The notes under the pieces are model-generated. The model was not told the origin of the DNA, did no database searches, and saw only the letters and a program-made list of their open reading frames with translations. Made by a program: the position numbers and the translations under genes. DNA of 64,000 bases from Catenuloplanes indicus (lineage in GTDB: Bacteria; Actinomycetota; Actinomycetes; Mycobacteriales; Micromonosporaceae). This document shows positions 45,908 through 64,000 of this stretch, in pieces. The stretch spans positions 1,612,001 through 1,676,000 of the forward strand of contig NZ_JAUSUZ010000001.1 in assembly GCF_030813715.1 (NCBI RefSeq), written 5' to 3'. Positions within the stretch are counted from its first letter, which is position 1. Every line of letters starts with the position of its first letter.

Positions 45908-46161
45908 GAGCGCACCCCCGCCGTGCAGCCCTCGACCGCGGCGACCAGGTCGTCGACCGTGCGCAGCTCCGCGGCCAGCACGACCGCGTCGTCGAGCTCC
46001 CGCCCGGTCTCGTCCTCCAGCCGGACGAAGACCCGGGTGAGCCCGAGCGAGGTGAGTCCCAGGTCGTCCTCCAGCCGGGTGGTGCCGATGATCGGCACAT
46101 CCGCCGACGTCTCCTGGGCGAGCACCCGTCGTACCGTGCTCGCGATGTCGCTGCCGGACAT
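45904..46161 (-). CDS. Acyl/peptidyl carrier protein 1
   Basis: This 85-residue carrier protein contains a phosphopantetheine-type site, LEDDLGLTSLGLTRVFVRLE, in which the usual DSL is TSL; the Ser is present. It would be primed by the phosphopantetheinyl transferase of the same operon and loaded by one of the free-standing adenylation enzymes. A strong GGAGGAG lies just before the ATG at 46161, and its stop overlaps the TrpB-like start. Proximity suggests that the amino acid handled by the TrpB-like enzyme may be carrier-bound. Confidence 0.83.
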   Translation of the reverse strand: MSGSDIASTVRRVLAQETSADVPIIGTTRLEDDLGLTSLGLTRVFVRLEDETGRELDDAVVLAAELRTVDDLVAAVEGCTAGVRS

Positions 46162-47342: not shown

Positions 47343-48956
47343 CTACACCTTCCTCTGGGATGGGATCGTCGGCCCGGCCTCGGTCGCCCATGCTGACAGC
47401 GCGACCCGGTCGAGCTTTCCGTTCTCGGTCACCGGCAGGCCGTCGACGACCCAGATGCGGCCGGGAACCATGTACGCGGGCAGGGCGGTGCGGCAGAACG
47501 CCGCCGCCTCGGTGGGGTCGAACGGGCCCGCGTCCGGCGCCTGCACGATCATCGCGGCCAGTTCGACGTCACCGTCGGCCTGCGGGATGACGACGGCCGC
47601 CGCTGCCGCGACCCCGGGCAGGTCGAGCAGGCGGCGCTCGACCTCGGCCAGCTCGACACGGTTGCCCCGGATCTGCACCTGCCCGTCGGCGCGTCCCGAG
47701 AAGTACAGCTCGCCGTCCGGACCGAGGCAGCCGAGGTCGCCGGTGCGCAGCACGACCTGGTTGCTGCGCGGGTCGGTCGGATCGGGCACCAGCGCCGACC
47801 GGGTCGCCTCGGGATCGTCCCAGTACCCGGTGAACAGGGCCGGACTGCGCAGGTACATCTCACCGTTGGCGCCCGGGCCGGTCACCGGCGCACCGTCCGG
47901 CCCGATCAGCAGCAGTTCCGCGCCCGGGTGGGCACGGCCGATGGGCGGCTGGTCCAGGTCATCCGGCAGCGGCCGGGGCACGTCCGCGAACGCGCAAGCC
48001 ATCGATTCGGTCGCGCCGTAGCAGTTGACGATCCGGGCCTGCGGCAGGGCGGCCTGCAACCGGCGCAGCTCGGGCATCGGGAACCGCTCGCCGCAGAACA
48101 GCACGCCACGCAGTCCGTGCAAGGCGGCCAGGCCGTTCCACGAGTGCCGCAGAACCTGACGCCAGATCGACGGCACGCCGTTGACCTGTGTCGTGCCGGT
48201 CTCCCGGAGCACCGTGAGGAAGCGTGACGGCCAGCGCAGCAGGTCTCGGGGCACCGGCACCACCGAGGCGCCGCTGCCCAGCGCGAGGCCGATGTCGAGC
48301 AGGGAGAAGTCGAACTGGAACGGCGAGGTGCTGGCGACCCGGTCGGCCGGGCCGACGAGACCCTGAGTGAGCATGCCGTGGTAGAAGGCGACGACGGCCC
48401 GGTGGCTCATCACCACGCCCTTCGGCCGGCCGGTGGTGCCGGACGTGAAGATCATGTAGGCGGTGTCGGCCGCCACCACCTCGCGCCGGTGCCGGACCCG
48501 GCGCGCGGGCCGGCGCCGCAGCCGCAGCCCTTCGGGAGCCAGCGTGCCGACGCCACCGGCGCCGGCCAGGAACTGCCGCGGCTCACCGGCGCTGAGGTAG
48601 AGCGCAGGCTCGGTCGACGCGGCGATCGTGGCCAGCCGCACGTCCGGCGTCTGCGGGCTGACCGGGACGAAGGCCACCCCGAGCCGGCCGCACGCCAGGA
48701 ACGTACCGATCGCCGCAGCCGAGGTGTCGGTCTCCAGCAGCACCCGGTCGCCGGGGCCGAGGCCCGCGTCCGCCAGGGCCGCGGTGGTGTCCCGTACGCG
48801 GGCGGCCAGTTCACCGTACGACGTGGTACGCAGCTCGCCGTTCCCAGCGAACTCGATCACCGCCGGTCGCGCCGGTGTGGTCCCGGCAGCGGCCAGCAGG
48901 AAGTCGGGCATGGTCTCACCGGGCGCGTGCACCGGCGGTGGAACGGTGGTGGTCAT
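47343..48956 (-). CDS. Free-standing amino-acid adenylation enzyme 1
   Basis: This 537-residue AMP-forming ligase has the ordered core motifs IFTSGTTGRPKGVVMSH, the specificity-pocket strand FQFDFSLLDI with the Asp expected for alpha-amino-acid substrates, NCYGATESM, VLRTGDLG and the catalytic Lys in ENGKLDRVAL. No carrier domain is fused, so it loads one of the discrete ACPs. The pocket starts D-F-L; I cannot assign the amino acid. Its start overlaps the upstream gene by 4 bp, and the cyclase gene begins 4 bp after its stop, so expression is tightly coupled. Confidence 0.92.
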   Translation of the reverse strand: MTTTVPPPVHAPGETMPDFLLAAAGTTPARPAVIEFAGNGELRTTSYGELAARVRDTTAALADAGLGPGDRVLLETDTSAAAIGTFLACGRLGVAFVPVSPQTPDVRLATIAASTEPALYLSAGEPRQFLAGAGGVGTLAPEGLRLRRRPARRVRHRREVVAADTAYMIFTSGTTGRPKGVVMSHRAVVAFYHGMLTQGLVGPADRVASTSPFQFDFSLLDIGLALGSGASVVPVPRDLLRWPSRFLTVLRETGTTQVNGVPSIWRQVLRHSWNGLAALHGLRGVLFCGERFPMPELRRLQAALPQARIVNCYGATESMACAFADVPRPLPDDLDQPPIGRAHPGAELLLIGPDGAPVTGPGANGEMYLRSPALFTGYWDDPEATRSALVPDPTDPRSNQVVLRTGDLGCLGPDGELYFSGRADGQVQIRGNRVELAEVERRLLDLPGVAAAAAVVIPQADGDVELAAMIVQAPDAGPFDPTEAAAFCRTALPAYMVPGRIWVVDGLPVTENGKLDRVALSAWATEAGPTIPSQRKV

Positions 48957-49855
48957 CGGACCTCCCGGATCGCGGTGGTCATCGTGGCGGTCAGCTCGCC
49001 GAAGGCCCGGGCCACCAGACCCGGCCGGGGATTGCCCCGGGCGGCGGAGTCCGCGGCGAACCGAAGGGTGCGCGGCAGCGCCGCCCAGCCGCGCGCCGCA
49101 GCCTCGGCCGGTGCCGGCGGCACTGCGCCGTCCTCGGTCAGCCGGAGTAGCCGATGACGCTGGTGGCGGGCGACCGCCCACAGGTCGTCGACGTGACGGG
49201 CGAGCGCTGCGGGGTCGGCGGAGAACCGGTCGGCGAGGTAGCACAGAGCCTCGGCCGGGTCGTCCAGCCACCGCCCGGGACGCGGTGCCGGCGGCCGGGC
49301 CTGCTGCCGGGCCAGCCAGCGGTACCGGGCGGCGGACGGTGTCGGCACGGGGTGGCCCAGCGCATACGTGTCCCTGGCGCTCACCTCCGGTGGCAGGGTG
49401 CCCGGCGGGCTGAGCGCACGGCGCAGCTCGTCATCGCTCATCCGGCCGCGGTACGGCAGTTGCTCGCCACGCGGCAGCAGCGCCTGGAAGTCGTCGCGGA
49501 CCTCCCACCGGCCGTCGTGCAAACCGTGCAGCAGCAGCCAGTGCGGCACGTCGGCCACACCGTGGTTCGGCGACCAGGGCAGATACCGGGTGTTGCCGAC
49601 GGCCAGCACAGCCGCGGCCTCGCGCAGCTCGCCACGCAGTCCTTCCCGGGCGGCCGCCCAGCTGTCCGCCGCGCGGTAGCCCAGCTCCTGTCCACCGGGG
49701 AGAGTGTCGAACCGGTCGTGGTGACAGAACCCGGGAACGCCGTCGGCCCGCACCCGCAGCCGGACCGCGTGCGCCAGGCGCCCCCGTACGTCCGGCACCT
49801 CCGATTCCAGCAGGGCGACCAGGTTCGCCGTGTAGCAGCTCAGTTCCGCGGTCAT
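48953..49855 (-). CDS. BtrH-like putative cysteine acyltransferase A
   Basis: I do not recognise a certain family. The 300-residue protein has an N-terminal Cys in LSCYTANLVALL, a His in VADVPHWLLLHGLHDG and an Asp in WEVRDDFQALLPRG. This C-H-D layout recalls papain-like BtrH/peptidase-C39 proteins that move acyl groups from carrier proteins to amines in butirosin-type pathways. The protein encoded at 51838 shares the CxxANLxxL box and the same general order. The C-terminal half is helical and Arg-rich. It is coupled to its neighbours on both sides by 4-bp overlaps. Function is a hypothesis. Confidence 0.5.
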   Translation of the reverse strand: MTAELSCYTANLVALLESEVPDVRGRLAHAVRLRVRADGVPGFCHHDRFDTLPGGQELGYRAADSWAAAREGLRGELREAAAVLAVGNTRYLPWSPNHGVADVPHWLLLHGLHDGRWEVRDDFQALLPRGEQLPYRGRMSDDELRRALSPPGTLPPEVSARDTYALGHPVPTPSAARYRWLARQQARPPAPRPGRWLDDPAEALCYLADRFSADPAALARHVDDLWAVARHQRHRLLRLTEDGAVPPAPAEAAARGWAALPRTLRFAADSAARGNPRPGLVARAFGELTATMTTAIREVR

Positions 49856-50469
49856 CGTTCCTCCGTCCAGGCGCAGCTCAGTGGCGTGTCGGACAGGTCG
49901 GGCAGGCGGTGCCAGCGCAGGTGCCGCCACCGGCCGCCGTGGGCGTCCAGCGGCACCTCGACGGCCCACGGCCGTCCGGCCAGGCCCGCCCCGGTCGCTT
50001 TCACACACGCCTCCTGCACCGTCCAGATCCAGGCGAGCGCGCTGGCCCGAGCGGCTGGTTCCAGTGCGCGCAGCCGAGCGGCGTGCGTGGGTGCACAACG
50101 GCGGACCAGCCCGTCGCCGGCCTCGGCCGGCGGGGACTGGACGTCAACGCCGACGGCCCGGCCGAGACCGACGCAGGCGGCGACCGTGCCGTCGTCGTGC
50201 GAGATGTTCACGCCGATGCCGGGGTGCCCGGCGAGCGCGGGTTTGCCGTTCGCGGCGGCCACCAGTGCGACGCCGGCCACGGCTGGTTCCACCACGGCCA
50301 GTAGCCGTCTCAGCAGGGCCCGCCCGGCCAGTCTTTCCAGGGCGCGCCACGCGGGCAGTCCGGCCACGTCGGGGTGGTCGACCGAATGCGCCGGCGCGGT
50401 GTCCACGATCGCGGCGTAGCCGTGCGCCGTGGCGACGAACACGCCGGGCGTCACCTCGACCGTCCTCAT
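49852..50469 (-). CDS. Sfp-type 4-prime-phosphopantetheinyl transferase
   Basis: This 205-residue enzyme transfers the pantetheine arm of CoA to carrier proteins. Visible motifs are NISHDDGTVAACVGLGRA, the metal-binding GVDVQ and WTVQEACVKATGAGL (family WxxKExxxK, with Gln in place of the first Lys). It would activate the three ACPs of this cluster. It is embedded in the operon with 4-bp overlaps at both ends. Its presence inside the cluster suggests dedicated carrier-protein priming. Confidence 0.88.
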   Translation of the reverse strand: MRTVEVTPGVFVATAHGYAAIVDTAPAHSVDHPDVAGLPAWRALERLAGRALLRRLLAVVEPAVAGVALVAAANGKPALAGHPGIGVNISHDDGTVAACVGLGRAVGVDVQSPPAEAGDGLVRRCAPTHAARLRALEPAARASALAWIWTVQEACVKATGAGLAGRPWAVEVPLDAHGGRWRHLRWHRLPDLSDTPLSCAWTEER

Positions 50470-51575
50470 CGGACGCCCATCTCGGCCAGCACGCGGTCGG
50501 CGGACTCCGCGACGATGGAGAGCACCACCTCGTCAGCGCCGCCACCGATGCCGAACAGCGCCGCCTGCGCCCGCAGCGTCTGCAGCCCGCCCCGGGTGAA
50601 GCCGTCCGCACCGTGGAACTGCGCGCACTCGCGCAGCACGTGTTCCACGGTGGTCGCGGCGGCGCTCTTGACCAGGGCCGCCGACACGGTGTCCCGGCGG
50701 GCGACGATGTCGTCGCCGGCTGCCCGGGTCAGTGCATCCAGCTGACGGGCCCGGACCAGGCAGGCGGCGAACCGCTGCCGGACCGTGTCGGACTGCCAGA
50801 GGGTGTCGCCGCCGGGCCGTGCCGCGGTGAGCCGCGCCCGGGTCCGGCGCAGCACCCGCCGGCACAGGGCCACCGCCCACAGACCGCCGGCCAGCCGTTC
50901 CACCGCGATGTGCGCGGCGAACCCGGACATACCGCGGCCCGGGCGGCCCGCCAGGTAGGAACGGTGCAGGTGGACGTCGTCGAGCCGGACGTGCCCGGTG
51001 CCCGAGCCGTCGAAGAGGTCGGTGTCGGCCGCGGTGACGGTCACACCGGGTGCGCCGACCGGTACCAGAACCCAGGTGAAGCTGGTGAAGTGCCGCCCGG
51101 GGCGGTGCCGGGCGAGGACGAGCACGTGATCGGCGTGAGTGGCATTGGCGATCCATCGTTTGATGCCGGTGACCCGGATCGAGTCGCCGTCGATGGACAC
51201 CTCCGTGGCGAGCGCGGCCAGGTCGGTGCCGGCGGTCTCGTCGGTCGCGGCGAGCGCGATCGGGCCGGCGCCGGCCAGCGTGCGGGCCAGCACCTCGGCT
51301 GGGTGGCCGCCGTCGGCACCGGCGAGCAGCGGCACCGCGCTCGCCACGCTGACGCAGACGCCCAGCGTGGCGCCGAGGGAGAACCGTTCGTCGACGACGG
51401 TGAGCACCGTGCGCAGTCCGTCGGGGCGCACCCCGGCGCCCGGGTCGCCGTCGCGGTAGGCCTCCCGCAGCAGTCCGTCGGCGGCCAGCGCGGACCAGAT
51501 CTGCCGGCTGTCCGCGTCGGCGGGCAGCACGGCCAGCCGGCCGGTGTGCGCGGGCGATGGCAGGACGGCGGTCAT
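50466..51575 (-). CDS. Acyl-CoA/ACP dehydrogenase-like flavoprotein 1
   Basis: This 369-residue protein has the acyl-CoA dehydrogenase fold: the middle domain contains IALAATDETAGTDLAALATE and GIKRWIANATHADHVLVLAR, and the C-terminal domain has CAQFHGADGFTRGGLQTLRA and GIGGGADEVV. Located directly after an ACP gene (4-bp overlap), it most likely desaturates a carrier-bound acyl or aminoacyl chain, as do the prolyl-PCP oxidases of pyrrole pathways. The ATG at 51575 overlaps the ACP stop; the frame stays open upstream without family similarity. Confidence 0.85.
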   Translation of the reverse strand: MTAVLPSPAHTGRLAVLPADADSRQIWSALAADGLLREAYRDGDPGAGVRPDGLRTVLTVVDERFSLGATLGVCVSVASAVPLLAGADGGHPAEVLARTLAGAGPIALAATDETAGTDLAALATEVSIDGDSIRVTGIKRWIANATHADHVLVLARHRPGRHFTSFTWVLVPVGAPGVTVTAADTDLFDGSGTGHVRLDDVHLHRSYLAGRPGRGMSGFAAHIAVERLAGGLWAVALCRRVLRRTRARLTAARPGGDTLWQSDTVRQRFAACLVRARQLDALTRAAGDDIVARRDTVSAALVKSAAATTVEHVLRECAQFHGADGFTRGGLQTLRAQAALFGIGGGADEVVLSIVAESADRVLAEMGVR

Positions 51576-51826
51576 GAGCGGCCCGGCGCGACCGCGTCCC
51601 GGCTGACCCGCACGGCCTCCCACAGGCTGCCCGCGGTAGCGAAGGTCTCGTCGTTGAGGTAGTCGTCGGGCAGTGTCACCTGCAGTGCGTCCTCGATGGC
51701 GAAGAGCAGATCGATCGAGTGCATCGAGTCGAGTCCGAGATCACGCAGGCGGCTGTCCGGAGTCAGCGGCCGTCCGTCGAGGTAAGGCAGGTATCCGGTG
51801 AGCAGCTCGGTGAAGCGGGGGTCCAT
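51572..51826 (-). CDS. Acyl/peptidyl carrier protein 2
   Basis: This 84-residue carrier protein has a canonical pantetheine site, LRDLGLDSMHSIDLLFAIED (DSM in place of DSL). It lies between the BtrH-like gene B (12 bp upstream) and the acyl-ACP dehydrogenase (4-bp overlap), which suggests the dehydrogenase acts on its cargo. The ATG at 51826 has GAGTC as a weak ribosome-binding site. Confidence 0.9.
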   Translation of the reverse strand: MDPRFTELLTGYLPYLDGRPLTPDSRLRDLGLDSMHSIDLLFAIEDALQVTLPDDYLNDETFATAGSLWEAVRVSRDAVAPGRS

Positions 51827-51837
51827 CGTCGACTCCT

Positions 51838-52704
51838 TCACGGTGCCGGGTCGGTCCGCGGGCGTGCCGCGCCGGCCTCGTCGGTCAGCAGGTGCTCCAG
51901 TTCGGTGAACAGCCCGGAGGGTTCCGGGTGGCCGCGGGCGACCCGGCGCAGCGCCACGAACGCCCGGCCGGCGAGCGCGTCCCAGCGCTCCAGTTGCGCG
52001 GTCAGCCCGGCGTGCGGCGTACCGGTCCGTTCGCGGAACGCGTGGTGCAGCTTGCGGGACCGGGCCAGCAGCCACGTCTCCACCGCGAAGCGTTCCGTCG
52101 CGGCGGTCCGGTCCGGGTGTTCGGCGTACGCCCGCGGGTAGTCGCCGGGCGGTGCGAGGTCCGCCGCGGGCGCGGCGCTGGGCGGGCCGGCCGGATCGGC
52201 GGCCAGGACCCGTACGGTCGCGTCGGGTGGCAACTCGTCCCAGGCGAGGTGCCAGCGGCCGGGTGCGGCCGTGCCCCAGGGCGTCTGGTTGTGGTAGGCG
52301 TCGGTGACCATCGCCGCCGGCCCGGACGGCTCGACCAGGTAGCTGTGCTCCATGTGCCGGCGCCGGTAGTACGGCAGCCACGGCATCGCCGCCGAGTCCG
52401 CCACCACGTAGAGCCGGCCGTGTTCGGCGGCCAGCGCCCGGATGCCGTCCGGCGCCACGTTCGCGTACTCGGCGACCGTGTACAGCCCCAGCCGCCGGCC
52501 GGCTTCGGCGAGTTGCGGTGCCAGCGGCGGCTCCACGGTGGGTAGCCCGCCGTCACCGGGAAGCGGCCGGAACCTCAGCACGGCGCCCATCGCCAGGTGC
52601 GTGCCGGGCCCGTGACGGTGGTCGGCGAGCACCGCGAGATTGGCCTGTATGCAATCGAGTAATTCCGCTCGCACGGTGGCCGGATCGCTAATGACGGGGT
52701 TCAT
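51838..52704 (-). CDS. BtrH-like putative cysteine acyltransferase B
   Basis: This 288-residue protein is a distant paralogue of the one encoded at 48953. It has Cys in ELLDCIQANLAVLADHRHG, His in YRRRHMEHSYLVEPSG, and an Asp/Asn-rich stretch MVTDAYHNQTPWGTAAP. The order of candidate Cys, His and Asp residues fits a papain-like transferase of the BtrH type that would release an acyl group from an ACP to an amine. It is the first gene of the leftward operon; a GAGGAGGGAAAA ribosome-binding site precedes its ATG at 52704. The family assignment is tentative. Confidence 0.5.
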   Translation of the reverse strand: MNPVISDPATVRAELLDCIQANLAVLADHRHGPGTHLAMGAVLRFRPLPGDGGLPTVEPPLAPQLAEAGRRLGLYTVAEYANVAPDGIRALAAEHGRLYVVADSAAMPWLPYYRRRHMEHSYLVEPSGPAAMVTDAYHNQTPWGTAAPGRWHLAWDELPPDATVRVLAADPAGPPSAAPAADLAPPGDYPRAYAEHPDRTAATERFAVETWLLARSRKLHHAFRERTGTPHAGLTAQLERWDALAGRAFVALRRVARGHPEPSGLFTELEHLLTDEAGAARPRTDPAP

Positions 52705-53002: not shown

Positions 53003-54340
53003 ATGACCCAGTTGGTCGCCAGCTCCCCGGAAACCGGTCGCTTTCGCGCATTCGGGCCGCGGCACATCAACGAGATCGCCGCACGATACCGGCTGCCCGA
53101 GCAGGCGCGGGAAACCGTGCGGCTGCTATCGAGAGTATTGCCGTTCCGGGTGAACGAGTACGTACTGTCCGAACTTGTCGACTGGGATCGCGTACCGGAT
53201 GATCCGATATTCCGGATGGTCTTTCCGCAGCCGGGGATGCTGTCCGATGACGACGTGCGGATGCTGGCGGCGGTGGACGAGCGCGACCGGGCCCGGATGG
53301 CGGAGGTGGTGCGCGACATCCGCGGGCGGCTCAACCCCCACCCGTCCGGGCAACGCGAGCACAACGTGCCCAGCCTGGACGGTGAGCGGCTGGCCGGCCT
53401 GCAGCACAAGTACCGCGAGACGGTGCTCTATTTCCCGGGCCAGGGACAGACGTGTCACGCGTACTGCACCTACTGCTTCCGGTGGGCACAGTTCATCGGC
53501 GATGCGGACCTGCGGTTCGCCGCTCCCGGACCGGAGCGGCTGGTCGCCTATCTGCGCCGCCATCCCGAGGTCACCGACGTACTGGTCACCGGCGGCGATC
53601 CGATGGTGATGTCGACCGAGCGGCTGCGCGAGCACCTGGAGCCGATCCTGGCCGTCGACACGGTGCGCACGATCCGGATCGGCACGAAGTCCATCTCGTA
53701 CTGGCCGCACCGATTCGTCGGCGACCGCGACGCCGACGACGCCCTTCGGCTGTTCGACCAGGTGGTCGCCAGCGGCCGGCAGATGGCCGTGATGGCGCAC
53801 TTCAGCCATGTGCGTGAGGTGGAGACCGACACCGCTCGCGAGGCCGTGTCCCGCATCCGGTCCACCGGAGCGTCGGTGTACTGCCAGGCACCGATGGTGG
53901 CGAACGTCAACGACCAGGCCGGCGTCTGGACCGATCTGTGGACGGCGGAGCTCGGCCTCGGCGCGGTGCCGTACTACATGTTCGTCGAGCGGGACACCGG
54001 GCCGTACGAGTACTTCAAGGTGCCGCTGGCCCGGGCGGTCGAGATCTTCCACGCCGCCTACCGCCGCCTGCCCGGCCTGGCCCGCACGGTCCGCGGGCCG
54101 GTGATGTCCGCCACCCCGGGCAAGGTGCTCGTCGACAGCGTCGAGCAGACCCCGCAGGGCCGCTGGTTCCGGCTTCGGCTGGTGCAGGCCCGCGACCCCG
54201 CCCTGGTCGGCCGGCCGTTCCGGGCCCGGTTCTCCACCAGTGCCGCCTGGCTCAGCGACCTGGAGCTCGATCCGGCGACCCCGGCCGACATCGCGGCGGC
54301 GGTCGGCCCGCACACCCGAGCAACCGGAGGTTCCCGATGA
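53003..54340 (+). CDS. KamA-family radical SAM aminomutase-like enzyme
   Basis: This 445-residue enzyme has the radical SAM cluster motif CHAYCTYC (C151, C155, C158), continuing FRWAQFIGDADLRF, followed by VTDVLVTGGDPMVMSTERL (the GGDP SAM-binding motif) and YFKVPLARAVEIFHAAYRR. The layout is that of lysine 2,3-aminomutase relatives, which use PLP and SAM to move an alpha-amino group to the beta carbon; a Lys in SATPGKVLVDS may bind PLP. Its own cysteine motif is not the classical KamA one, so the substrate may differ. It starts the rightward four-gene operon and overlaps the aminotransferase gene by 4 bp. Confidence 0.85.
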   Translation: MTQLVASSPETGRFRAFGPRHINEIAARYRLPEQARETVRLLSRVLPFRVNEYVLSELVDWDRVPDDPIFRMVFPQPGMLSDDDVRMLAAVDERDRARMAEVVRDIRGRLNPHPSGQREHNVPSLDGERLAGLQHKYRETVLYFPGQGQTCHAYCTYCFRWAQFIGDADLRFAAPGPERLVAYLRRHPEVTDVLVTGGDPMVMSTERLREHLEPILAVDTVRTIRIGTKSISYWPHRFVGDRDADDALRLFDQVVASGRQMAVMAHFSHVREVETDTAREAVSRIRSTGASVYCQAPMVANVNDQAGVWTDLWTAELGLGAVPYYMFVERDTGPYEYFKVPLARAVEIFHAAYRRLPGLARTVRGPVMSATPGKVLVDSVEQTPQGRWFRLRLVQARDPALVGRPFRARFSTSAAWLSDLELDPATPADIAAAVGPHTRATGGSR

Positions 54341-55629
54341 CCGCTCTCGCCGCACCGCCCCGCCGCTGGCGTACCTCACCCAATCTGGCGATCAACGAGA
54401 TGGTGGCCCGGAGGCGTGCCGCCGGTGAGCAGATCGTGCACCTCGGGTTCGGCGAGGCTCGGCTGCCGGCCTCGGAACCGTTGCTGCGGCGGCTCGTCGA
54501 CGGGGCCGGCCGCAACACGTACGGCCCGGTCGCCGGCACGCCGGAGCTACGCGCGGCCGTCGCGGGGTACTTCGGCCGCCGCCGGCTGGCGACCGATCCG
54601 GAGCAGGTGGTGGCCGGGCCCGGCAGCAAACCGCTGCTGATGGCGCTGAACCTGGTACTGCCGGGCGACGTGCTGCTGCCCCGGCCGTGCTGGAACTCGT
54701 ACGCGCCGCAGGCCGCGCTGGCCGGCAAGCGCGCGTTCGGGGTGCCGATCCCGGCTGAGTGCGGCGGGGTACCGGATCCGGACGGCCTGCGCCGGGCGAT
54801 CCAGGCGGCCCGCGCCGGTGGCGGCGACCCGCGCACGCTCGTGCTGACCGTCCCGGACAACCCGACCGGCACGGTCGCTCCGCCCGCCCTGATCCGCCGC
54901 CTGTGCGCGATCGCCGAGGAGGAGGACCTGCTGCTGATCTCCGACGAGATCTACCGCGATCTCGTGCACGACCCGCACACCACGCCGGTGCTCAGCCCCG
55001 CCGAGGTGCTGCCGGAGCGGACCGTGATCGCCACCGGGCTGTCCAAGAGTCTCGCCCTGGGCGGTTGGCGGATCGGCGTGATCCGGGTGCCGGCCGGCCC
55101 GCGCGGTGAACAGCTGCGCGACGGGGTGGTCTCGGTGGCCAGCGAGGTGTGGTCCAGCCTGGCCGGGCCGATGCAGGAGGTCGCGGCGTACGCCTACGGG
55201 GAACCACCGGAGATCCGCGACCGGCTGCACACGTGTGCCCGGTTGCACGGCGCACTGGCCCGGGCCGTGCACGGCCTGCTGGTGCGCGCGGGCGCCGAGT
55301 GCCGGCCGCCGACCGCGGGTTTCTACGTCTATCCGGACTTCGCACCGATGCGGGCGACGCTGGCCCGGCGCGGGGTGACCGACTCGGCTTCGCTGCAGCG
55401 GTTCCTGCTCGATGAGGCGGGCATCGCGGTCCTCGGCGGTGCCCAGCTCGGCGACGACCCGGCGGCACTGCGGTTCAAGGCCGCCACCAGCACGTTGTAC
55501 GGCGAGACCCGCAACGAGCAGGAGGCGGCACTGGCCGCGGCCGACCCGGCCGCACTGCCGCACATCGCCACGGTCCTGAACCGGATCGAGGCGGGCCTGG
55601 ACCGGCTCTGCGCGGGCGGGATCCGATGA
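54337..55629 (+). CDS. Class I/II PLP-dependent aminotransferase
   Basis: This 430-residue fold-type I enzyme shows the aspartate-aminotransferase-family motifs LVLTVPDNPTGTVAPP, LLISDEIYRDLVHD (Asp that pairs with the PLP ring) and the PLP-binding Lys in ATGLSKSLALGGWRIG. The C-terminal domain has GAECRPPTAGFYVYPDFAP. It would interconvert an amino acid and a keto acid, possibly downstream or upstream of the aminomutase. It is translationally coupled to the radical SAM gene (ATGA) and to the ACP gene that follows. Confidence 0.9.
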   Translation: MTALAAPPRRWRTSPNLAINEMVARRRAAGEQIVHLGFGEARLPASEPLLRRLVDGAGRNTYGPVAGTPELRAAVAGYFGRRRLATDPEQVVAGPGSKPLLMALNLVLPGDVLLPRPCWNSYAPQAALAGKRAFGVPIPAECGGVPDPDGLRRAIQAARAGGGDPRTLVLTVPDNPTGTVAPPALIRRLCAIAEEEDLLLISDEIYRDLVHDPHTTPVLSPAEVLPERTVIATGLSKSLALGGWRIGVIRVPAGPRGEQLRDGVVSVASEVWSSLAGPMQEVAAYAYGEPPEIRDRLHTCARLHGALARAVHGLLVRAGAECRPPTAGFYVYPDFAPMRATLARRGVTDSASLQRFLLDEAGIAVLGGAQLGDDPAALRFKAATSTLYGETRNEQEAALAAADPAALPHIATVLNRIEAGLDRLCAGGIR

Positions 55630-55895
55630 GCGCCCCGGCCGCCGAGGTACGGGACGCCGTGATCCGCACCGTGAGCGCGGTCCTGGCGGTCGACGAGCGA
55701 ACCGTGGCCGGCACCGCGAGCCTGACCGACATCGACCGGTTCAACTCGTTCCGCATGGTGGAGATCGTCGAGCGGCTGGAGTCCGAACTCGGCGTGGAGA
55801 TCGACGCGGACGACCTGATCCCCGAGAACCTGCGGCACGTGGACCGGCTGAGCCGGCTGTTCGCGGCCGCCCGGCAACGAACGGAGCGATCATGA
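55626..55895 (+). CDS. Acyl/peptidyl carrier protein 3
   Basis: This 89-residue carrier protein has the modification site TDIDRFNSFRMVEIVERLES, with NSF at the position of DSL. The surrounding helix pattern and the distal VEIDADDLIPENLRHVDRLS fit ACPs. It is coupled by 4-bp overlaps to the aminotransferase and to the acyl-ACP dehydrogenase, so its cargo is probably desaturated by the latter. Confidence 0.85.
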   Translation: MSAPAAEVRDAVIRTVSAVLAVDERTVAGTASLTDIDRFNSFRMVEIVERLESELGVEIDADDLIPENLRHVDRLSRLFAAARQRTERS

Positions 55896-57067
55896 CCGTC
55901 GCACCGGCCCGTACCTCGGCCGCCGACATCCTGTCGCGTCTTCCCGGCGTACGGGAGGTGGTCCGCGAGCACGCCGCCCGGTGCGATCGGGACGCGGTCT
56001 TCCCCGAGGCGGCTCTGACCGCGTTGCGCCGCAGTGGGCTGCTCGGCCTGACCGTGCCGGCCGGCGACGGCGGGCCCGGTGGCACGCTGGCGCAGATGCT
56101 GCACGCCTCGGCCGAGCTGTCCCGGGACTGCACGTCGGTCGGAATGATCTTCACGATGCACTGTCAGCAGGTGGACGCGCTGGTCCGGTACGGTTCGCCG
56201 CGGCTGCGGGCCGAACTGCTGCCCCGGATCGTGCGCGGAGAGCTCTACCTCGGCTCGGTGACCACCGAGCCGAAGGGCGGTGGTCACCTGCTCACCTCCT
56301 CGGCCCGGCTGCACGGCGACGCCGCGGCACTGACCGTCGACCGGATCGCGCCCGTGCTGACCGGCGGCGGATACGCGGACGGTTTCCTCATCACCATGCA
56401 GGCCCCCGGTGCACGCTCGCCCGGCGAGGTGTCGCTGGTCTACGCCGCCCGGGACCAGCTGGCGGTCACCCCGGCGGGCGGCTGGGATCCGCTCGGTATG
56501 CGCGCCACCGCCAGCGGTGCCATGCGGCTGTGCGGCGAGATACCCGGTGATCAGGTCATCGGGGAGCACGGCCGGTTCCGTGACATCGCGGTGGCGGTGT
56601 TCGGCCCACTGGCACACCTGGGCTGGGCCGCATGCTGGCTGGGCGCCGCGGACGGCGCGCTGGCCCGCACGGTTCGGCTGCTGCGCAGCCCGGCGGAGCG
56701 TGGGAGGACCGGATCGGAGACCGCCCGGCGCCGGCTGTCCCGGGTACGTCAGCGGCTGGACACCGTGCACGCGCTGATCCAGCACGCCTGCGGGGTACTG
56801 ACCGCCGGCGTCGAGAACGTCACCGCTCCCCCCGCCCAGCTGCTGCTCAACGCGGTCAAGCTGACCGCGTCGGAGCAGTGCCTGGCCGCCGTCGACGACC
56901 TGGTGGAGCTGGCCGGGCTGCGGCACGGCTATCAGCGCGGGTCGGAGCTGGGCCTGGAGCGGACACTGCGGGACCTGCGGTCGGCATCGCTGAATTACAG
57001 CAACGACCGGCTGCACGACGCGGACGGAGTGCTGGTGATGCTGGACCGGGAGGTCCGCCATGTCTGA
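55892..57067 (+). CDS. Acyl-CoA/ACP dehydrogenase-like flavoprotein 2
   Basis: This 391-residue protein has the acyl-CoA dehydrogenase fold: the N-terminal FPEAALTALRRSGLLGLTVP, a middle domain with LYLGSVTTEPKGGGHL and ADGFLITMQAPGARSPGEVS, and the C-terminal LERTLRDLRSASLNYSND. As with its counterpart at 50466, it directly follows an ACP gene, pointing to oxidation of a carrier-bound chain. It ends the rightward operon and is convergent with the MFS gene only 4 bp away. Confidence 0.87.
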   Translation: MTVAPARTSAADILSRLPGVREVVREHAARCDRDAVFPEAALTALRRSGLLGLTVPAGDGGPGGTLAQMLHASAELSRDCTSVGMIFTMHCQQVDALVRYGSPRLRAELLPRIVRGELYLGSVTTEPKGGGHLLTSSARLHGDAAALTVDRIAPVLTGGGYADGFLITMQAPGARSPGEVSLVYAARDQLAVTPAGGWDPLGMRATASGAMRLCGEIPGDQVIGEHGRFRDIAVAVFGPLAHLGWAACWLGAADGALARTVRLLRSPAERGRTGSETARRRLSRVRQRLDTVHALIQHACGVLTAGVENVTAPPAQLLLNAVKLTASEQCLAAVDDLVELAGLRHGYQRGSELGLERTLRDLRSASLNYSNDRLHDADGVLVMLDREVRHV

Positions 57068-57071
57068 ACGG

Positions 57072-58250
57072 TCAGCGCGCGGCGGGCTCGGTCACGTGGT
57101 GCCGGATACCGCCGCCGGCCAGCGCCAGCAACGCGGACGCGACGACCAGGGTCCACAGCGCCCAGCGGAGGCCGAACTCCCCGGCCAGCAGACCGATCAA
57201 CGGCGGACCGATGAAGTACGCGGGCCATTGGCCGAGCACCGCGACGGAGACGCCCTCCTCGGAGGTCAGGCCGGGTTGCCGACCGGCATAGCTCATCACG
57301 GTCGGAGTGACGCAGCCGAGCCCCAGCCCGAGCACCGCGAATCCGGCGAACACCGCAGGCGCGTGCGGCACGGCCAGCGCCAGGGCCAGCCCGGCTCCCG
57401 CGACGGCCACCGAGAGCCGGAGGAAACGCAGGCGTCCGATCCGGTCCGCGATCCGGTCACCGAAGAAGCGCGCCGCCGTGATGGCCAGCGAGTAGCAGGT
57501 GAACGTCACCGCACCGGCCGCGGCCGCCGCACCGACCGAGTCGACGGTGTAGATGGCGCTCCACTGCCCGGCGGCGCTCTCGGTCATCGAGGCGAGGAAC
57601 GCCATCCCGGCGAGCAGCCCGAGCTGGGGCGTGAGCCGGTCCCGCAGCCGGCGCCGGCGACGGTCGTCCGCGGGGCCCGGCGCGGGGTCGTCCGGCAGCC
57701 GGCGCCCGGTCGCGACGAGCAGCACGCCGAGCACGACGGTGTTGAGCGTGAACTGCACCTGCGGTGTGATCCCGTTGGCGGCTGCCACGCTGCCGAGCAG
57801 GCCGCCGGCCAGCGTGCCACCGCTGAAACAGGCATGGAACGTGGACATCAGGGCCCGGCCGTACCGCCGCTCCACCTCCACGGCCTGCGCGTTGACCGGA
57901 GTGGCCAGCAGGTTCGCCGCGAAGCCCCAGACGAACAGCGTGCACACCAGCGCGGCGGGCGCGGTCGAGCCGGCCATCAGCGGGCCGTTGACGAGCAGCA
58001 GCGACGCACCGGCGAGGGTGAGCCGGCTCTTGCGTACGCGCCCGACCAGGACCGTCACCAGCACGAGGGAGAGCAGCTGCCCGGCGGTGGTCGCGGTGGT
58101 CACGAGTCCCCAGCCGGTGTCGCCCAGCCCGACGGCACGCCGCACGTCGGGAATGCGGGAACTCCAGTTACCGATGATCGAGCCCATGATGCAGAAGCAG
58201 ACGGCCACCGCGAGCCGTGCCCGTCGATCCACGGCCTGCTGAACGTCCAT
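57072..58250 (-). CDS. MFS-family exporter
   Basis: This 392-residue integral membrane protein has about 12 predicted helices and the MFS loop motifs SRIPDVRRAVGLGDTGWGLV and FGDRIADRIGRLRFLRLS. It resembles bacterial drug-export or FsrA-type permeases. In this location it is the likely exporter of, and self-resistance factor for, the cluster product. It is transcribed divergently from the DOI aminotransferase gene from the 189-bp region at 58251-58439 and ends tail-to-tail with the dehydrogenase gene. Confidence 0.88.
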   Translation of the reverse strand: MDVQQAVDRRARLAVAVCFCIMGSIIGNWSSRIPDVRRAVGLGDTGWGLVTTATTAGQLLSLVLVTVLVGRVRKSRLTLAGASLLLVNGPLMAGSTAPAALVCTLFVWGFAANLLATPVNAQAVEVERRYGRALMSTFHACFSGGTLAGGLLGSVAAANGITPQVQFTLNTVVLGVLLVATGRRLPDDPAPGPADDRRRRRLRDRLTPQLGLLAGMAFLASMTESAAGQWSAIYTVDSVGAAAAAGAVTFTCYSLAITAARFFGDRIADRIGRLRFLRLSVAVAGAGLALALAVPHAPAVFAGFAVLGLGLGCVTPTVMSYAGRQPGLTSEEGVSVAVLGQWPAYFIGPPLIGLLAGEFGLRWALWTLVVASALLALAGGGIRHHVTEPAAR

Positions 58251-58391: not shown

Positions 58392-58439
58392 GGCACAAAG
58401 CAATGTCCGAGTCGTTGATACCCGATGGGAGACGCCCCC

Positions 58440-59711
58440 ATGGTTCAGACCACCAGCGTTGCGACACTCGCCGTGGACGGCGGCGATCCGGTGCGCGATC
58501 CGGCACGGCGATGGCCGGAGTGGCCGGTACCGGCGCCGGGCCTGCTCGAGTCTCTGGGCACAGTGGTGCGCAGCGGCCGCTGGGCGATCAGCAGCCCCGG
58601 CCACGGCAACCTCTTCGAGCGCCGATTCGCCCGGCTGTGGTCGGCGTACGTCGGCACCCGGCACTGCGTGCCCACCGACCACGGGTCCAGCGCCCTGGTG
58701 ATCGCGCTGGAGTCACTCGGCCTCGATCCCGGCGACCGGGTGCTGGTGCCCGCGCTGACCTGGACCGCGTCGGCGACCGCGGTGCTCCGCGCCGGCCTGC
58801 TCCCGGTACTGACCGATGTCGACCCGGCCACCGGCACCATCGGCCCGGAGCACCTCGACCCGGCCGTCGGCGCACGCGCGGCGATCGTGGTCCACTGGGC
58901 GTGCGCGATGGCCGACGTACCGGCGATCACCGCGGTCGCGGACGGCCTCGGCATCACGGTGATCGAGGATGCCGCCCAGGCGCACGGCGCACGGTGGCTC
59001 GGCCGGCCCGCGGGTTCTCTGGGCCGGCTCGGCTGCTTCAGCATGCAGCACGCCAAGGTCCTGACCTGCGGGGAGGGTGGCGCGGTGGTCACCGACAGCG
59101 ATGAACTGGATCGCCGGCTACAGGAGCTGCGGGCCGACTCGCGCCGTTACCGCGCGCCGCACGAGACAGGTGCGCTGGAGCTGGCCGAGACGGCCGGGGT
59201 GATGGGCGCGAATTTCTGCCTCAGCGAATTCGGTGCGGCGGTCCTGTGCAGTCAGCTCGGTCTGCTCGACGATCAGCACGAGACCCGCAACCGCAACTAC
59301 CGCCTGCTCGACGATCTGCTGTCCGGGATAGACGGCGTCCGCCTGCTGGCGCACCGTCCCGAGCAGGACCGGCTGTCGCTCTACGAGGTGCCGATCGTCT
59401 TCGAGGACCTCCCGCCCGGACGGGACAACCGGTGGGTCGCCGCGGCACTCGCCGCCGAACTGGGTACCCGGGTCTATCCGCCGCGGGTGCCGCTGCACCG
59501 CAGCCCGCTGCTGCGGCCGTCGACCAAGCCCGCCCTGGCTCCGCTGGCCGCCGAGTTCGGCCGGCTGCACGCCGGACGCCGGTTCCCCGGCGCGGAGCAC
59601 CTGGCCGGGCACGCCGTGCTGCTGCACCACAGCGCTTTCCTCGGTCCGGCGGAGGACATGGTCGACGTGGCGGCGGCGGTCGGCAAGGTCGCCGCCGGCC
59701 GGCCGCTCTGA
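58440..59711 (+). CDS. 2-Deoxy-scyllo-inosose aminotransferase (DegT/DnrJ/EryC1 family, BtrS/StsC type)
   Basis: This 423-residue PLP enzyme matches the aminocyclitol aminotransferases: PEWPVPAPGLLESLGTVVRS at the start, SGRWAISSPGHGNLFERRFA, LVPALTWTASATAVLRAGLL, the catalytic Lys in FSMQHAKVLTCGEGGAVV, LQELRADSRRYR and GANFCLSEFGAAVLCSQLG. BtrS/StsC-type enzymes transfer the amino group of glutamine to 2-deoxy-scyllo-inosose or scyllo-inosose. With the DOI synthase-like protein in this cluster, DOI is the expected substrate, giving 2-deoxy-scyllo-inosamine. The ATG at 58440 has GGGAG 8 bp upstream; an ATG at 58425 lacks one. Confidence 0.87.
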   Translation: MVQTTSVATLAVDGGDPVRDPARRWPEWPVPAPGLLESLGTVVRSGRWAISSPGHGNLFERRFARLWSAYVGTRHCVPTDHGSSALVIALESLGLDPGDRVLVPALTWTASATAVLRAGLLPVLTDVDPATGTIGPEHLDPAVGARAAIVVHWACAMADVPAITAVADGLGITVIEDAAQAHGARWLGRPAGSLGRLGCFSMQHAKVLTCGEGGAVVTDSDELDRRLQELRADSRRYRAPHETGALELAETAGVMGANFCLSEFGAAVLCSQLGLLDDQHETRNRNYRLLDDLLSGIDGVRLLAHRPEQDRLSLYEVPIVFEDLPPGRDNRWVAAALAAELGTRVYPPRVPLHRSPLLRPSTKPALAPLAAEFGRLHAGRRFPGAEHLAGHAVLLHHSAFLGPAEDMVDVAAAVGKVAAGRPL

Positions 59712-59720
59712 GGAGGGACG

Positions 59721-60815
59721 GTGAACCCGATGGTGGAGCACGGGGTGTCCGTGGTCGTCCCGGTCCGCGGCCGGGTGCCACAGCTGCGCCGGTTGCTGGA
59801 CAGTCTGACAGTGGCCGTACGCCGTTGCCCGGAGCCGGTCGAGGTGATCGTGGTGGACGATTCGGCGGCGGCCGATGCCCGGCGGCATCGGGAGTCCTGC
59901 GATCGGGCGGATGCTCGGTACCTGCGCGGGCCACGGCACGTCGGCGCCAAGCGCAACCTCGGCGTCCGCAACGCCCGGTACGACCTCGTACTGTTCATCG
60001 ACTCGGACTGCCGGGCCAGCCCGGACCTGATCCGCCGGCATGCCGCGACGCTGCGAGCGGCGCCGCCCGGCATCGGCGGCGTGACCGGCCCGTCCGCACC
60101 GGTTCCCGGCCGCGGATATCTCGACCGGGTGATGGCAGGCTCGGAGGTGCTCAACGGCGACCTGTCGCGGCCGGCGCGGTACGCCCAGCTGACCTGGGCG
60201 ACGACCTGCAATCTGGCGGTACGCCGGGCCGCCTTCGACGCCGCCGGCGGTTTCCCGGAGCGGTCGCTGACCGTGGTCGCCGGCGAGGACGTCGAGCTTG
60301 GCGTGCGGCTGTCCGGCGCCGGCTACGCGATCCGGTGCGACCCGGCGGCCGGCGTCGAGCACGACCCGCCCACCAGCGGCGGCGTACGCGGCCTGGTCCG
60401 GCGGCTGTACACCTACGGCCGTTCGGAGCAGTGGCTGTGCGCGATTCACCCGGAGCGGCGCCGTTTCGTGTGGAACCCGGCGACGGTGCTCGGCGTGGCC
60501 GCGCTCACCGCCGCCACGGTACCGGCCCGGGTGCGCGGGCCGGTCCTGCTCGGTGTGCCGCTGCTGGCCGGTGCCGTGCTCACCGTGCGGCTGCGCCGGG
60601 AGCTGGCCCGGGATCGGACCGGGCCGGTCACCGAGGCGCTCACCCGGGTGGTGCTGGAGCTGTCGTTCGACGTGGGCGCCGCGGTCGCGGCCGTGCAACT
60701 GGGCCGGCCCGCGCTGTTGCTCGGCGGGCTGCATCCGGTCGACGAGCGGGACGTCCTGCGGACCGCACCCCCGGGCGTGACGGAGGAGTTCGCCCTCGTG
60801 GAAGGACAGGCCTGA
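59721..60815 (+). CDS. Family 2 glycosyltransferase with C-terminal membrane segment
   Basis: This 364-residue GT-A enzyme begins VSVVVPVRGRVPQLRRLLDS. It has the nucleotide-sugar DxD motif in VLFIDSDCRASPDLIRR, a conserved WATTCNLAVRRAAFDAAGGF and the acceptor-side VVAGEDVELGVRLSGAGYAI. A hydrophobic C-terminal part (about residues 255-285) may anchor it to the membrane. It probably transfers an activated sugar to the aminocyclitol or its conjugate. The GTG at 59721 follows an AGGAGG; its stop overlaps the next start by one base (TGATG). Confidence 0.87.
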   Translation: MNPMVEHGVSVVVPVRGRVPQLRRLLDSLTVAVRRCPEPVEVIVVDDSAAADARRHRESCDRADARYLRGPRHVGAKRNLGVRNARYDLVLFIDSDCRASPDLIRRHAATLRAAPPGIGGVTGPSAPVPGRGYLDRVMAGSEVLNGDLSRPARYAQLTWATTCNLAVRRAAFDAAGGFPERSLTVVAGEDVELGVRLSGAGYAIRCDPAAGVEHDPPTSGGVRGLVRRLYTYGRSEQWLCAIHPERRRFVWNPATVLGVAALTAATVPARVRGPVLLGVPLLAGAVLTVRLRRELARDRTGPVTEALTRVVLELSFDVGAAVAAVQLGRPALLLGGLHPVDERDVLRTAPPGVTEEFALVEGQA

Positions 60816-62227
60816 TGGCTCCGGTCACCGAGACCGCCGTACGGCGGCTGGCCCCCGGCCAGGAGACGCTCTGGCACTTCATGCGCGCACTGTCGCCGCA
60901 CGACCCCGGCGACTCCCGGGTGACCGTGCTGGACGTGCGCGAGCTGACCGGCGACCTCGACGCGGGCCGGCTGCGGGACGCGGCGGCCGTGCTGACCCAG
61001 CGGCATCAATCGCTGCGGCTCGCGTTCGACGGTTTCGGTCCCGACCCGGAGCTGCGGCTCACCGGAGCGACCGCGGTGCCGCTGACCCGGATCGACCTGA
61101 CCGGCGCCGCCGGCCGGCCGGACGAGCTGCGCCGGCTGGTCAGGCTCGAACGCGTCCGCTCGTTCGACCTGTGCAGCGGCCCGCTGTGGCATCTGGGCCT
61201 GATCCGCACCGCACCGGACCGGCACACGCTGACGCTCAGCCTCAGCCACGTCATCGCCGACCAGTGGGCGGCCGACCTGTTCGTCGAGGACCTGTTACGG
61301 GTCTATTCCGCCACGCCCGCGGAGGCGGCACGGCTGGCCGAGCCGGCCGTCACGCTCGACGAGATCACCGCGCTGCACCGGGCGGTACTCCCCGGCGGCG
61401 AGAATCGGCTGCGGTACTGGCGGGAGAACCTGACCCCGCTGCCGGACCGGTCGATCCTGCCGGCACTCGACGCGTCACCGGAGGTGGACCTCGGTGACGA
61501 AGGGTCGCGGTCGTTCACGTTCGGCGTGGCCGTGGCCGGTGACCTGCCGCGGCTCGCCTGGCGGGCGCGCACCACACCGTTCGTCGCGCTGCTCGCCGCG
61601 TACCAGCTGACGCTGGCGCTGCGCACCGGCCTGGACCGGATCGTGCTGGGCACCACCACCCTGGGCCGGGACGCGCCGGCCGCCCGGGAGGCACTGAGCC
61701 AGTTCACCAACAACGTCTACCTGAACCTGCCGCTCGACCCGGCCATGCGCCTGGTCGACGTGGTGGCCGCGGCCGGCCGGGCGATGTCCGACGCGGTCGG
61801 CAACGTCGCCTCGTTCGGCCAGATCCGCCGCGCGGTCGGGCCGGGCACCCCGTCGTCGTTCCTGGAGCTCTACCACGGCTGGTTCCAGTCCTGGGGAGTG
61901 CCGCGCCCCGACCCCTCCGTGCCGGGGCTGCTGGTGCGGCGGTCCGGGAACGAGGCGGACGGTCCGGCGGCACGCGCGCCGAAGACCGAGGCCACCCACC
62001 CGGGTACGCGCGCCGCACACCTCAAGGCCGGCACACCGCACGTGATGGTGGCTCCGGACCGCGGCGGCGGCCGGTGCATCTATCACCCCGGCTTCTTCGC
62101 CACCGAGACCGTCGACCAGCTGATCGAGGACTACGTGCACGTGGTCGCGGCCGTCGTGCACGCGCCCGAACTGCGCGCCGGAGAGCTCCGGTTGCCCTCC
62201 CGACCGACCGCGAAGGAGACCCGATGA
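60815..62227 (+). CDS. Stand-alone condensation-domain enzyme
   Basis: This 470-residue protein has the NRPS condensation fold without carrier or adenylation partners. The active-site loop reads LSLSHVIADQWAADLF. The catalytic second His (residue 145) and Asp of HHxxxDG are present, but the first His is Ser and the Gly is Gln. The later latch-region motif FTNNVYLNLPLDPAMRLVDV is intact. It would form an amide between a carrier-bound acyl group and an amine such as an aminocyclitol or a second carrier-bound amino acid. It is translationally coupled to the glycosyltransferase and the adenylation gene. Confidence 0.87.
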   Translation: MAPVTETAVRRLAPGQETLWHFMRALSPHDPGDSRVTVLDVRELTGDLDAGRLRDAAAVLTQRHQSLRLAFDGFGPDPELRLTGATAVPLTRIDLTGAAGRPDELRRLVRLERVRSFDLCSGPLWHLGLIRTAPDRHTLTLSLSHVIADQWAADLFVEDLLRVYSATPAEAARLAEPAVTLDEITALHRAVLPGGENRLRYWRENLTPLPDRSILPALDASPEVDLGDEGSRSFTFGVAVAGDLPRLAWRARTTPFVALLAAYQLTLALRTGLDRIVLGTTTLGRDAPAAREALSQFTNNVYLNLPLDPAMRLVDVVAAAGRAMSDAVGNVASFGQIRRAVGPGTPSSFLELYHGWFQSWGVPRPDPSVPGLLVRRSGNEADGPAARAPKTEATHPGTRAAHLKAGTPHVMVAPDRGGGRCIYHPGFFATETVDQLIEDYVHVVAAVVHAPELRAGELRLPSRPTAKETR

Positions 62228-63756: not shown

Positions 63757-64000
63757 CGACGACCGTCGACTTCCGTACCGTGGCGTCCCGCTTCGCCACC
63801 GGCGTCGCGGTGGCGACCAGTACCGCGGGCGGGGTGCCGTTCGCCACCACGGTGAACGCGTTCACCACCGTGTCGCTGGATCCGACGCTGCTGCTGGTCT
63901 GTCTGCGGACCGGGTCTCGGCTGCTCGGCGCGATCGAGCGGTCCGGGGTGTTCGCGGTGACCGTGCTGTCCGGCACCCAGCGCGACTACGCACAGCGGTT
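63753..64000 (+). CDS. Flavin reductase-like protein (partial, runs off the window)
   Basis: The first 82 residues (FRTVASRFATGVAVATSTAG, then GVPFATTVNAFTTVSLDPTL) match the FMN-binding split-barrel flavin reductases of two-component monooxygenases. It would supply FMNH2 to a monooxygenase, which may be encoded beyond the window. The ATG overlaps the stop of the adenylation gene by 4 bp, so the operon and the cluster continue to the right. Confidence 0.85.
   Translation, partial: MTTTVDFRTVASRFATGVAVATSTAGGVPFATTVNAFTTVSLDPTLLLVCLRTGSRLLGAIERSGVFAVTVLSGTQRDYAQR

Follow-up and report, generated by a model that had tools for sequence, protein, structure and literature searches.

A radical S-adenosylmethionine (SAM) aminomutase, kam, and the operon around it in Catenuloplanes indicus are likely to supply a beta-amino acid to a carrier-protein pathway that runs without a polyketide synthase (PKS). 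The genes lie in a 64,000-nucleotide stretch (hereafter the window; contig NZ_JAUSUZ010000001.1, positions 1,612,001 to 1,676,000; GC 72.8%) of the 9.2 Mb genome. In the proposed route, kam would convert free L-glutamate to beta-glutamate by a 2,3-shift of the amino group, and its pyridoxal phosphate (PLP)-dependent partner at would remove one carboxyl group to leave (S)-3-aminobutyrate. The ligase adl1 would load this acid on a stand-alone acyl carrier protein (ACP), most likely acp2, and a second ligase, adl2, may then attach an amino acid to the amine as a cap, in the manner of IdnL7 and VinM. From there the carrier-bound unit would be handed to a module of acad1, acad2 and acp3 and oxidised, most simply by C2-C3 desaturation by acad1, and stand-alone condensation domains would build it into a small peptide-like product. 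Protein family, gene order, invariant residues, the ligase pocket and the exchange of supply genes come from direct comparison, whereas the chemical steps are predicted from sequence.

Four plus-strand open reading frames (ORFs) between 53003 and 57067, joined by three ATGA overlaps, encode products of 445 (kam), 430 (at), 89 (acp3) and 391 (acad2) amino acids. The initial annotation of this stretch had described the same four genes, and direct reading of the ORFs and overlaps agrees with it. The system extends further than was then recognised, since a divergent minus-strand operon (52704 to 44615) and plus-strand genes running to and past the window end had been missed. The minus-strand operon is compact (taking the longest frames, neighbouring genes are separated by at most 4 bases and overlap by up to 52), and reads btrHb, acp2, acad1, a phosphopantetheinyl transferase, btrHa, adl1, a dehydroquinate-synthase-like cyclase, acp1 and a TrpB-like enzyme (btrHa and btrHb are working labels only). 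It is part of the same module; the four genes as a self-contained system were rejected, given that the ligase, the likely first carrier and acad1 are encoded in the minus-strand operon. The principal genes are as follows.

53003..54340, plus strand: kam, KamA-fold radical SAM aminomutase, IdnL4-like (putative glutamate 2,3-aminomutase)
54337..55629, plus strand: at, fold-type I PLP enzyme, IdnL3-like (putative beta-glutamate beta-decarboxylase), PLP lysine K237
55626..55895, plus strand: acp3, carrier protein, Ser41 in DRFNSF, PP-binding domain PF00550
55892..57067, plus strand: acad2, acyl-CoA-dehydrogenase-fold flavoenzyme without the catalytic Glu
51838..52704, minus strand: btrHb, orphan family, conserved C18, H120 and D135
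51572..51826, minus strand: acp2, carrier protein most like the stand-alone ACPs of macrolactam loci
50466..51578, minus strand: acad1, acyl-CoA-dehydrogenase-fold enzyme with a conserved Glu at what we take to be the isovaleryl-CoA dehydrogenase position
48953..49855, minus strand: btrHa, orphan family, paralogue of btrHb, conserved C9, H107 and D123
47343..48956, minus strand: adl1, putative beta-amino acid adenylation enzyme, IdnL1-like, best solved relative 5jjq
62224..63756, plus strand: adl2, stand-alone adenylation enzyme, best solved relative 6akd

The aminomutase and its PLP partner

The cysteine motif that had drawn attention to kam, CHAYCTYC followed by FRW, is a KamA-like CHAYCTYCFRW in which C151, C155 and C158 are invariant across a 34-row alignment, as is the PLP lysine K374. 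The structure predicted from this alignment (mean pLDDT 85.0) matches lysine 2,3-aminomutase (2a5h) with Z 33.6 over 340 residues at 21% identity, far ahead of the next entry (Z 14.7). Despite sharing fold, cluster cysteines and PLP lysine with this clostridial KamA, kam differs in its substrate pocket, where R330 aligns with Asp293 and V367 with Asp330. Asp293 is the residue that holds the lysine side chain in KamA. R330 is present in 21 of 21 rows of a clade 63-74% identical to kam and in 59 of 59 rows of a sister clade at about 55% identity, and Asp330 is replaced by V or A in the former and by S or V in the latter. Of 27 reference rows, 19 carry Asp at the Asp293 position, seven carry Arg (six members of the 55% clade found again, plus L086; L-numbers label the compared loci) and one carries Val. 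With a basic residue in place of an acidic one, the pocket would suit an acidic side chain, as in glutamate. In the clostridial glutamate enzyme the two pocket positions are reported to be Lys and Asn.

Every NCBIfam aminomutase cut-off is missed by kam, including those of TIGR00238 (117 bits, cut-off 199), the KamA model TIGR03820 (104.7 bits, cut-off 525.4), the EpmB model TIGR03821 (93.3 bits, cut-off 369.3) and the arginine 2,3-aminomutase model TIGR04468 (75.7 bits, cut-off 600). The macrolactam-locus copies L020 and L215 and three others miss them all as well.

In a 61-row tree, built from every third locus of the 55% clade and without seven reference rows and the duplicate L002, kam falls inside the 22-row clade of 63-74% identity, which lies on one side of a branch with support 90/85 and includes copies from macrolactam PKS loci (L006, L011, L014, L015, L016, L020 and L072 among its members). 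The clade label needed one change in 100% of 200 bootstrap trees; L215, from another macrolactam locus, was grouped by its 71% identity. The tree, in which two reference rows are very long branches, does not resolve the position of kam within its clade. Four proteobacterial rows, taken as EpmB-like without classification by scan, form a group of their own (100/99). Thus neither of the two objections raised in the initial annotation, a grouping with EpmB or a missing PLP lysine, was borne out. By clade and motif, kam is most likely an IdnL4-type aminomutase of the macrolactam clusters, with glutamate conversion as its predicted activity. Readings of kam as a KamA/beta-lysine, EpmB or BlsG-type enzyme were rejected on scores, residues and tree; the beta-lysine analogy had been part of the initial annotation and is not supported, both lysine-binding aspartates being lost.

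The protein at, annotated initially as an aminotransferase, matches aminotransferase class I/II (PF00155, 162 bits) and conserves the PLP lysine K237. A homologue lies directly behind kam in 19 of 19 related loci (L003-L020 and L072), so the pairing is not chance. We compared 42 clusters, comprising 19 of 80 loci, 20 further regions (one merged with L008), three plasmid loci and the window; L021 and L022 (short contigs) and the 55% clade were set aside. Fourteen of the 20 regions were chosen for genomes with acad2 and no at match, and L190 and L191 among these carry kam. Gene presence followed our own bit-score cut-offs, and several stretches end inside the cluster. On this basis 25 of the 28 kam clusters contain at; a type I PKS occurs in eight of the 28 and a VinK-type transferase in six. 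In Streptomyces sp. NBC_00334, type I PKS genes enclose kam together with genes for an 'aminotransferase', an AMP-binding protein and a proline-iminopeptidase-type hydrolase. Two at copies (G648:C79:7805-9061 and G357:C22:272825-274090) each contain one in-frame stop codon, through either decay or sequencing error.

The same pair is known from macrolactam biosynthesis. According to a macrolactam review, IdnL3 decarboxylates beta-glutamate to (S)-3-aminobutyrate, and deletion of idnL4 links that gene to the 3-aminobutyrate route (PMC11284099; see also PMC9230918 and PMC10662134). The pretilactam report describes plmJ (aminotransferase) adjoining plmK (assigned as a glutamate 2,3-aminomutase) in a cluster with seven 3-aminobutyrate genes (PMC6631532). 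By this likeness, at is most likely a beta-glutamate decarboxylase of the IdnL3 type rather than the transaminase of the initial label.

Two other views of the pair were weighed. Were kam a lysine or arginine 2,3-aminomutase and at a true transaminase, the product would be a modified basic amino acid; the KamA fold, the annotation of relatives as lysine 2,3-aminomutase in sequence records and the aminotransferase residues kept in at all favour this, yet both lysine-binding aspartates are replaced, one of them by Arg, the KamA and arginine models score far below cut-off and the partner ligase is of the 3-aminobutyrate type (see below), which together make it quite unlikely. The initial annotation had also allowed for aminomutation of an ACP-bound alpha-amino acid, in keeping with the ACP gene inside the operon. 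This is highly improbable, as kam copies in PKS loci and those standing alone have no such ACP in their operons, and free beta-amino acids, according to the macrolactam review, bypass the idnL4 deletion in incednine and feed the strain lacking the homologue (PMC11284099).

Several points weigh against the glutamate-to-3-aminobutyrate assignment itself. The score of kam against the clostridial-type glutamate 2,3-aminomutase model TIGR04368 (79.8 bits) is far under the cut-off of 650, and at keeps the full aminotransferase residue set. The link to IdnL3 and IdnL4 runs through gene order and macrolactam loci rather than through their own sequences, and the compared clusters were partly selected by the genes being counted. 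The review states that IdnL4 activity was not seen in vitro (PMC11284099), which leaves the assignment to glutamate unproved for incednine as well. Finally, the 55% sister clade shares R330 and yet stands alone in halophiles and elsewhere; R330 alone therefore does not name the product.

The members of this sister clade (L023-L082 except L072) are stand-alone KamA-like genes, widespread in Marinobacter, Nocardiopsis, Nonomuraea and others, and many of their carriers come from salty places. They have no fixed partner gene, and their neighbours revealed no common partner of clear meaning; PlsX- and ArgS-like genes occur in many actinobacteria and pyruvate-dehydrogenase-like genes in Marinobacter (named by eye). 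Production of beta-glutamate as an osmolyte would be a guess at their role.

Ligases and carriers in a setting without polyketide synthase

The preferred assignment of kam and at as a 3-aminobutyrate supply is accompanied by a matching ligase. The best solved match of adl1 is 5jjq (621 bits), which we take to be IdnL1, and the specificity segment PFQFDFSLLDIGLALGSG is identical in both. The best solved match of adl2 is 6akd, presumably IdnL7. Across 24 adl1 rows (the window's duplicate not counted), the segment FDF[SA]LL is kept in 22 of 22 homologues that accompany at. In L190 and L191, which carry kam in genomes without an at match at E 1e-90, DLSLF replaces FDF[SA]LL and NSFGHTEC replaces NC[YF]G[ASP][TS]E, the sole such cases among the 24 rows. 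The ligase pocket thus differs between clusters with and without the decarboxylase, which is what one would expect were at to determine the acid that is loaded. The comparison indicates that adl1 is most likely a 3-aminobutyrate-type ligase partnering kam, and the different pocket in L190 and L191 suggests that beta-glutamate itself is used there. At L216, kam lies beside non-ribosomal peptide synthetase genes, and at was not found. These three kam copies without a decarboxylase offer a test of whether IdnL4-type enzymes really make beta-glutamate.

Stand-alone ACPs beside the macrolactam kam copies match acp2 best among the three carriers of the window, so acp2, and not acp3, is the likely first carrier. 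Formation of a beta-amino acid and its loading on an ACP, as initially proposed, are supported, and oxidation on the carrier is probable; acp3, the carrier of the four-gene operon, is probably not the one loaded first.

Taken together, the window shares with the starter set of incednine, pretilactam and mirilactam (IdnL4, IdnL3, IdnL1, IdnL7) an adjacent aminomutase and PLP enzyme, an IdnL1-like ligase, a second stand-alone ligase and a stand-alone ACP. It differs in having neither a PKS nor a VinK-type dipeptidyl transferase, and in adding acad1, acad2, acp3 and an orphan Cys-His-Asp protein pair. No ketosynthase active-site motif was found in the window or the 39 kb after it, and no VinK-type match in the window's cluster; the combination of type I PKS and VinK-type transferase that marks beta-amino acid macrolactam clusters is thus absent. 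Elsewhere in the genome, the closest ketosynthase match, part of a 3131-residue open frame, stops about 72 kb upstream of the window. This frame, and the fact that kam, at, adl1 and adl2 are all of types found in macrolactam clusters, would allow the genes to serve a macrolactam made by a PKS elsewhere in the genome. We regard that as very unlikely in view of the missing ketosynthase and VinK-type genes and of the L012 and L192 clusters, which hold the same gene set and no PKS within the stretches seen.

The preferred reading, a PKS-free supply route, also agrees with the distribution of acad2, which occurs in none of the eight kam clusters with a PKS and in 17 of the 20 without; nor was it found in the six VinK-bearing kam genomes (whole genome, E 1e-50). 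The supply route is of a known kind, here in a new setting without a PKS, and we found no report of 3-aminobutyrate supply in a PKS-free cluster in the open-licence literature. Here the supply is uncoupled from macrolactam synthases and linked instead to a module for probable oxidation on a carrier. Because the supply genes predict the beta-amino acid that enters, products not yet known can be sought by labelled feeding.

The probable oxidation module around acad2

Around acad2, present in 31 of the compared clusters, we found acp2 in 28, acp3 in 28, btrHb in 29, acad1 in 26 and adl2 in 24. The supplier varies: 17 clusters have kam and 12 have a VinO-type decarboxylase (a fold-type III enzyme of the diaminopimelate type, with an accompanying ligase in 11 of the 12), none has both, and two (L186 and L189) have neither. 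We infer that the ligase accompanying the VinO-type decarboxylase takes Asp, for a beta-alanine supply. A beta-aminoacyl-ACP is probably the shared substrate of the module, because suppliers interchange and ligase/decarboxylase pairs of this kind make beta-alanyl-ACP. In an even draw of 343 genomes of the genus Streptomyces, with five candidates scored per genome at the first look, 40 (about one in nine) contain acad2 relatives at E 1e-90 and 47 contain at relatives. Where at is at least 65% identical (19 of the 47), 16 of 19 genomes also have acad2, against 1 of 28 with only a more distant at (Fisher p 4e-14). As far as we found in the open-licence literature, the acad2 module has not been described as a unit, and two of its families, the base-less acad2 and the Cys-His-Asp pair, are without assigned function.

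The two flavoenzymes differ in their catalytic residues. In acad1, whose best solved relative is the acyl-ACP dehydrogenase MbtN, E242 (ORF numbering) is conserved in at least 95% of 36 rows and is assigned to the position of the catalytic base of isovaleryl-CoA dehydrogenase. In acad2, aligned by eye over 38 rows, neither known base position has a conserved Glu, and the C-terminal part keeps a motif of its own, RDLRSAxLNYSNDRLH. The gene at 55892 had been called a dehydrogenase; the acyl-CoA dehydrogenase domain is there, but the catalytic Glu is found in its homologue at 50466 instead. By sequence, acad1 is the better dehydrogenase candidate and acad2 the less certain of the two.

For these later steps only, it is possible, and we propose it tentatively, that acad2 belongs with the DszC-like two-component flavin monooxygenases and draws on a flavin reductase; it would hydroxylate the amine or a carbon of the beta-aminoacyl-ACP before acad1 dehydrogenates it. 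Besides the missing base and the motif of its own, acad2 scores with the SfnB and DszC models, and its predicted fold (mean pLDDT 79.0, the last 26 residues below 50) is as near to DszC (Z 38.1) as to dehydrogenases, the two kinds being tied from Z 39.0 to 35.6 across the best 50 rows. Against this reading stand that tie and the sequence comparison, in which the nearest solved relative is a butyryl-CoA dehydrogenase, followed by TdsC. A flavin reductase accompanies acad2 in 16 of the 31 clusters, the window's included, and is missing from the examined stretch of the other 15, several of which end early; this neither proves nor excludes an oxygenase, and a luciferase-like monooxygenase in the window's cluster could use the reductase. 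The most reduced form of the module (L213; Streptomyces californicus plasmid NZ_CP070262.1, 157431-168457) is made up of carriers, a ligase, a PLP decarboxylase, acad2, a phosphopantetheinyl transferase, an orphan protein, an adenylation enzyme and a flavin reductase, with no acad1, which favours an oxygenase role for acad2.

Oxidation of carrier-bound beta-aminoacyl units is known outside PKS systems. The bolagladin and AFC-BC11 reports describe ligase and decarboxylase pairs that make beta-alanyl-ACP from Asp, and an acyl-CoA dehydrogenase homologue, BolQ (AfcE proposed), that gives dehydro-beta-alanine (PMC7756342, PMC12186527), a residue also present in enamidonin-type lipopeptides of Streptomyces. 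The window resembles these systems (BolO/BolN/BolC/BolQ and AfcQ/AfcP/AfcK/AfcE) in placing a beta-aminoacyl unit on a stand-alone ACP outside a PKS together with an acyl-CoA-dehydrogenase homologue, acad1 and acad2 being likened to theirs by description only. It differs in that they start from Asp and decarboxylate on the carrier, whereas here Glu, decarboxylation of the free acid and 3-aminobutyrate are likely. Burkholderia was not among the matches listed in our plasmid searches. ColB1 (7xp7), which acts on carrier-bound cysteine, likewise places an acyl-CoA dehydrogenase fold on an aminoacyl carrier (Z 38.1 to the acad2 model); its aminoacyl group is a different one, and the comparison is by fold alone.

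The orphan proteins btrHa and btrHb are homologous (hhalign probability 97.5%), keep Cys, His and Asp in each, and have no Pfam match at E up to 1. btrHb occurs in no cluster without acad2. The Cys-His-Asp set is that of a papain-type triad, and we suspect that the pair may carry out acyl transfer or deacylation on carriers, in the manner of butirosin BtrH.

A broader and rather doubtful extension would make this a widespread, undescribed actinobacterial module that takes beta-aminoacyl-ACP from interchangeable suppliers (kam, at and adl1 for 3-aminobutyrate; an Asp ligase with a VinO-type decarboxylase for beta-alanine; kam without at perhaps for beta-glutamate) and carries out N-oxygenation and dehydrogenation of the carrier-bound unit, yielding an N-O function or a heterocycle such as an isoxazolinone, which the TrpB-like enzyme may couple to serine where present. 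The isoxazolinone idea comes from general natural-product chemistry, and a literature search gave no support for it. Azaserine-type hydrazone chemistry (PMC10445470) was also considered; the hydrazine-forming set of the azaserine cluster was not noticed in the ORF and family lists, no dedicated search having been made.

Neighbouring genes

The remaining features of the cluster within the window are these.

42628..44457, minus strand: AfsR-like regulator (named by eye); related regulators flank several related clusters
44615..45907, minus strand: TrpB-like PLP enzyme, NF009057 above cut-off
45904..46161, minus strand: acp1, carrier protein
46187..47338, minus strand: dehydroquinate-synthase-like cyclase
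49852..50469, minus strand: 4'-phosphopantetheinyl transferase
57072..58250, minus strand: MFS transporter, also in the L012 and L192 clusters
58425..59711, plus strand: DegT-family aminotransferase, common to L012, L192 and L196
59721..60815, plus strand: GT2 glycosyltransferase (MftF-like)
60815..62227, plus strand: condensation domain, stand-alone
63753..64000, plus strand: flavin reductase, start only in the window, running on as L083:254-763

Beyond the window end, in the stretch directly following it (L083), lie genes for a LysR-like regulator, a luciferase-like monooxygenase, an ATP-grasp protein, an ACP, a SPASM radical SAM protein and another condensation domain. The SPASM protein (L083:6296-7501) has the ACP and ATP-grasp genes as neighbours, and none of its 25 best NCBIfam matches is above cut-off. 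A TrpB-like enzyme stands beside a carrier protein in 12 of the 42 clusters, at 44615-46161 in the window and in L018, L178, L181-L183, L193, L194 and L197 among others; the pair is mostly accompanied by a glutamate-semialdehyde-dehydrogenase-like gene, none of which was found in the window. The cyclase at 46187-47338 and the DegT aminotransferase at 58425-59711 are both shared with L012 and L192, and hint at an amino-cyclitol or aminobenzoate-like second building block.

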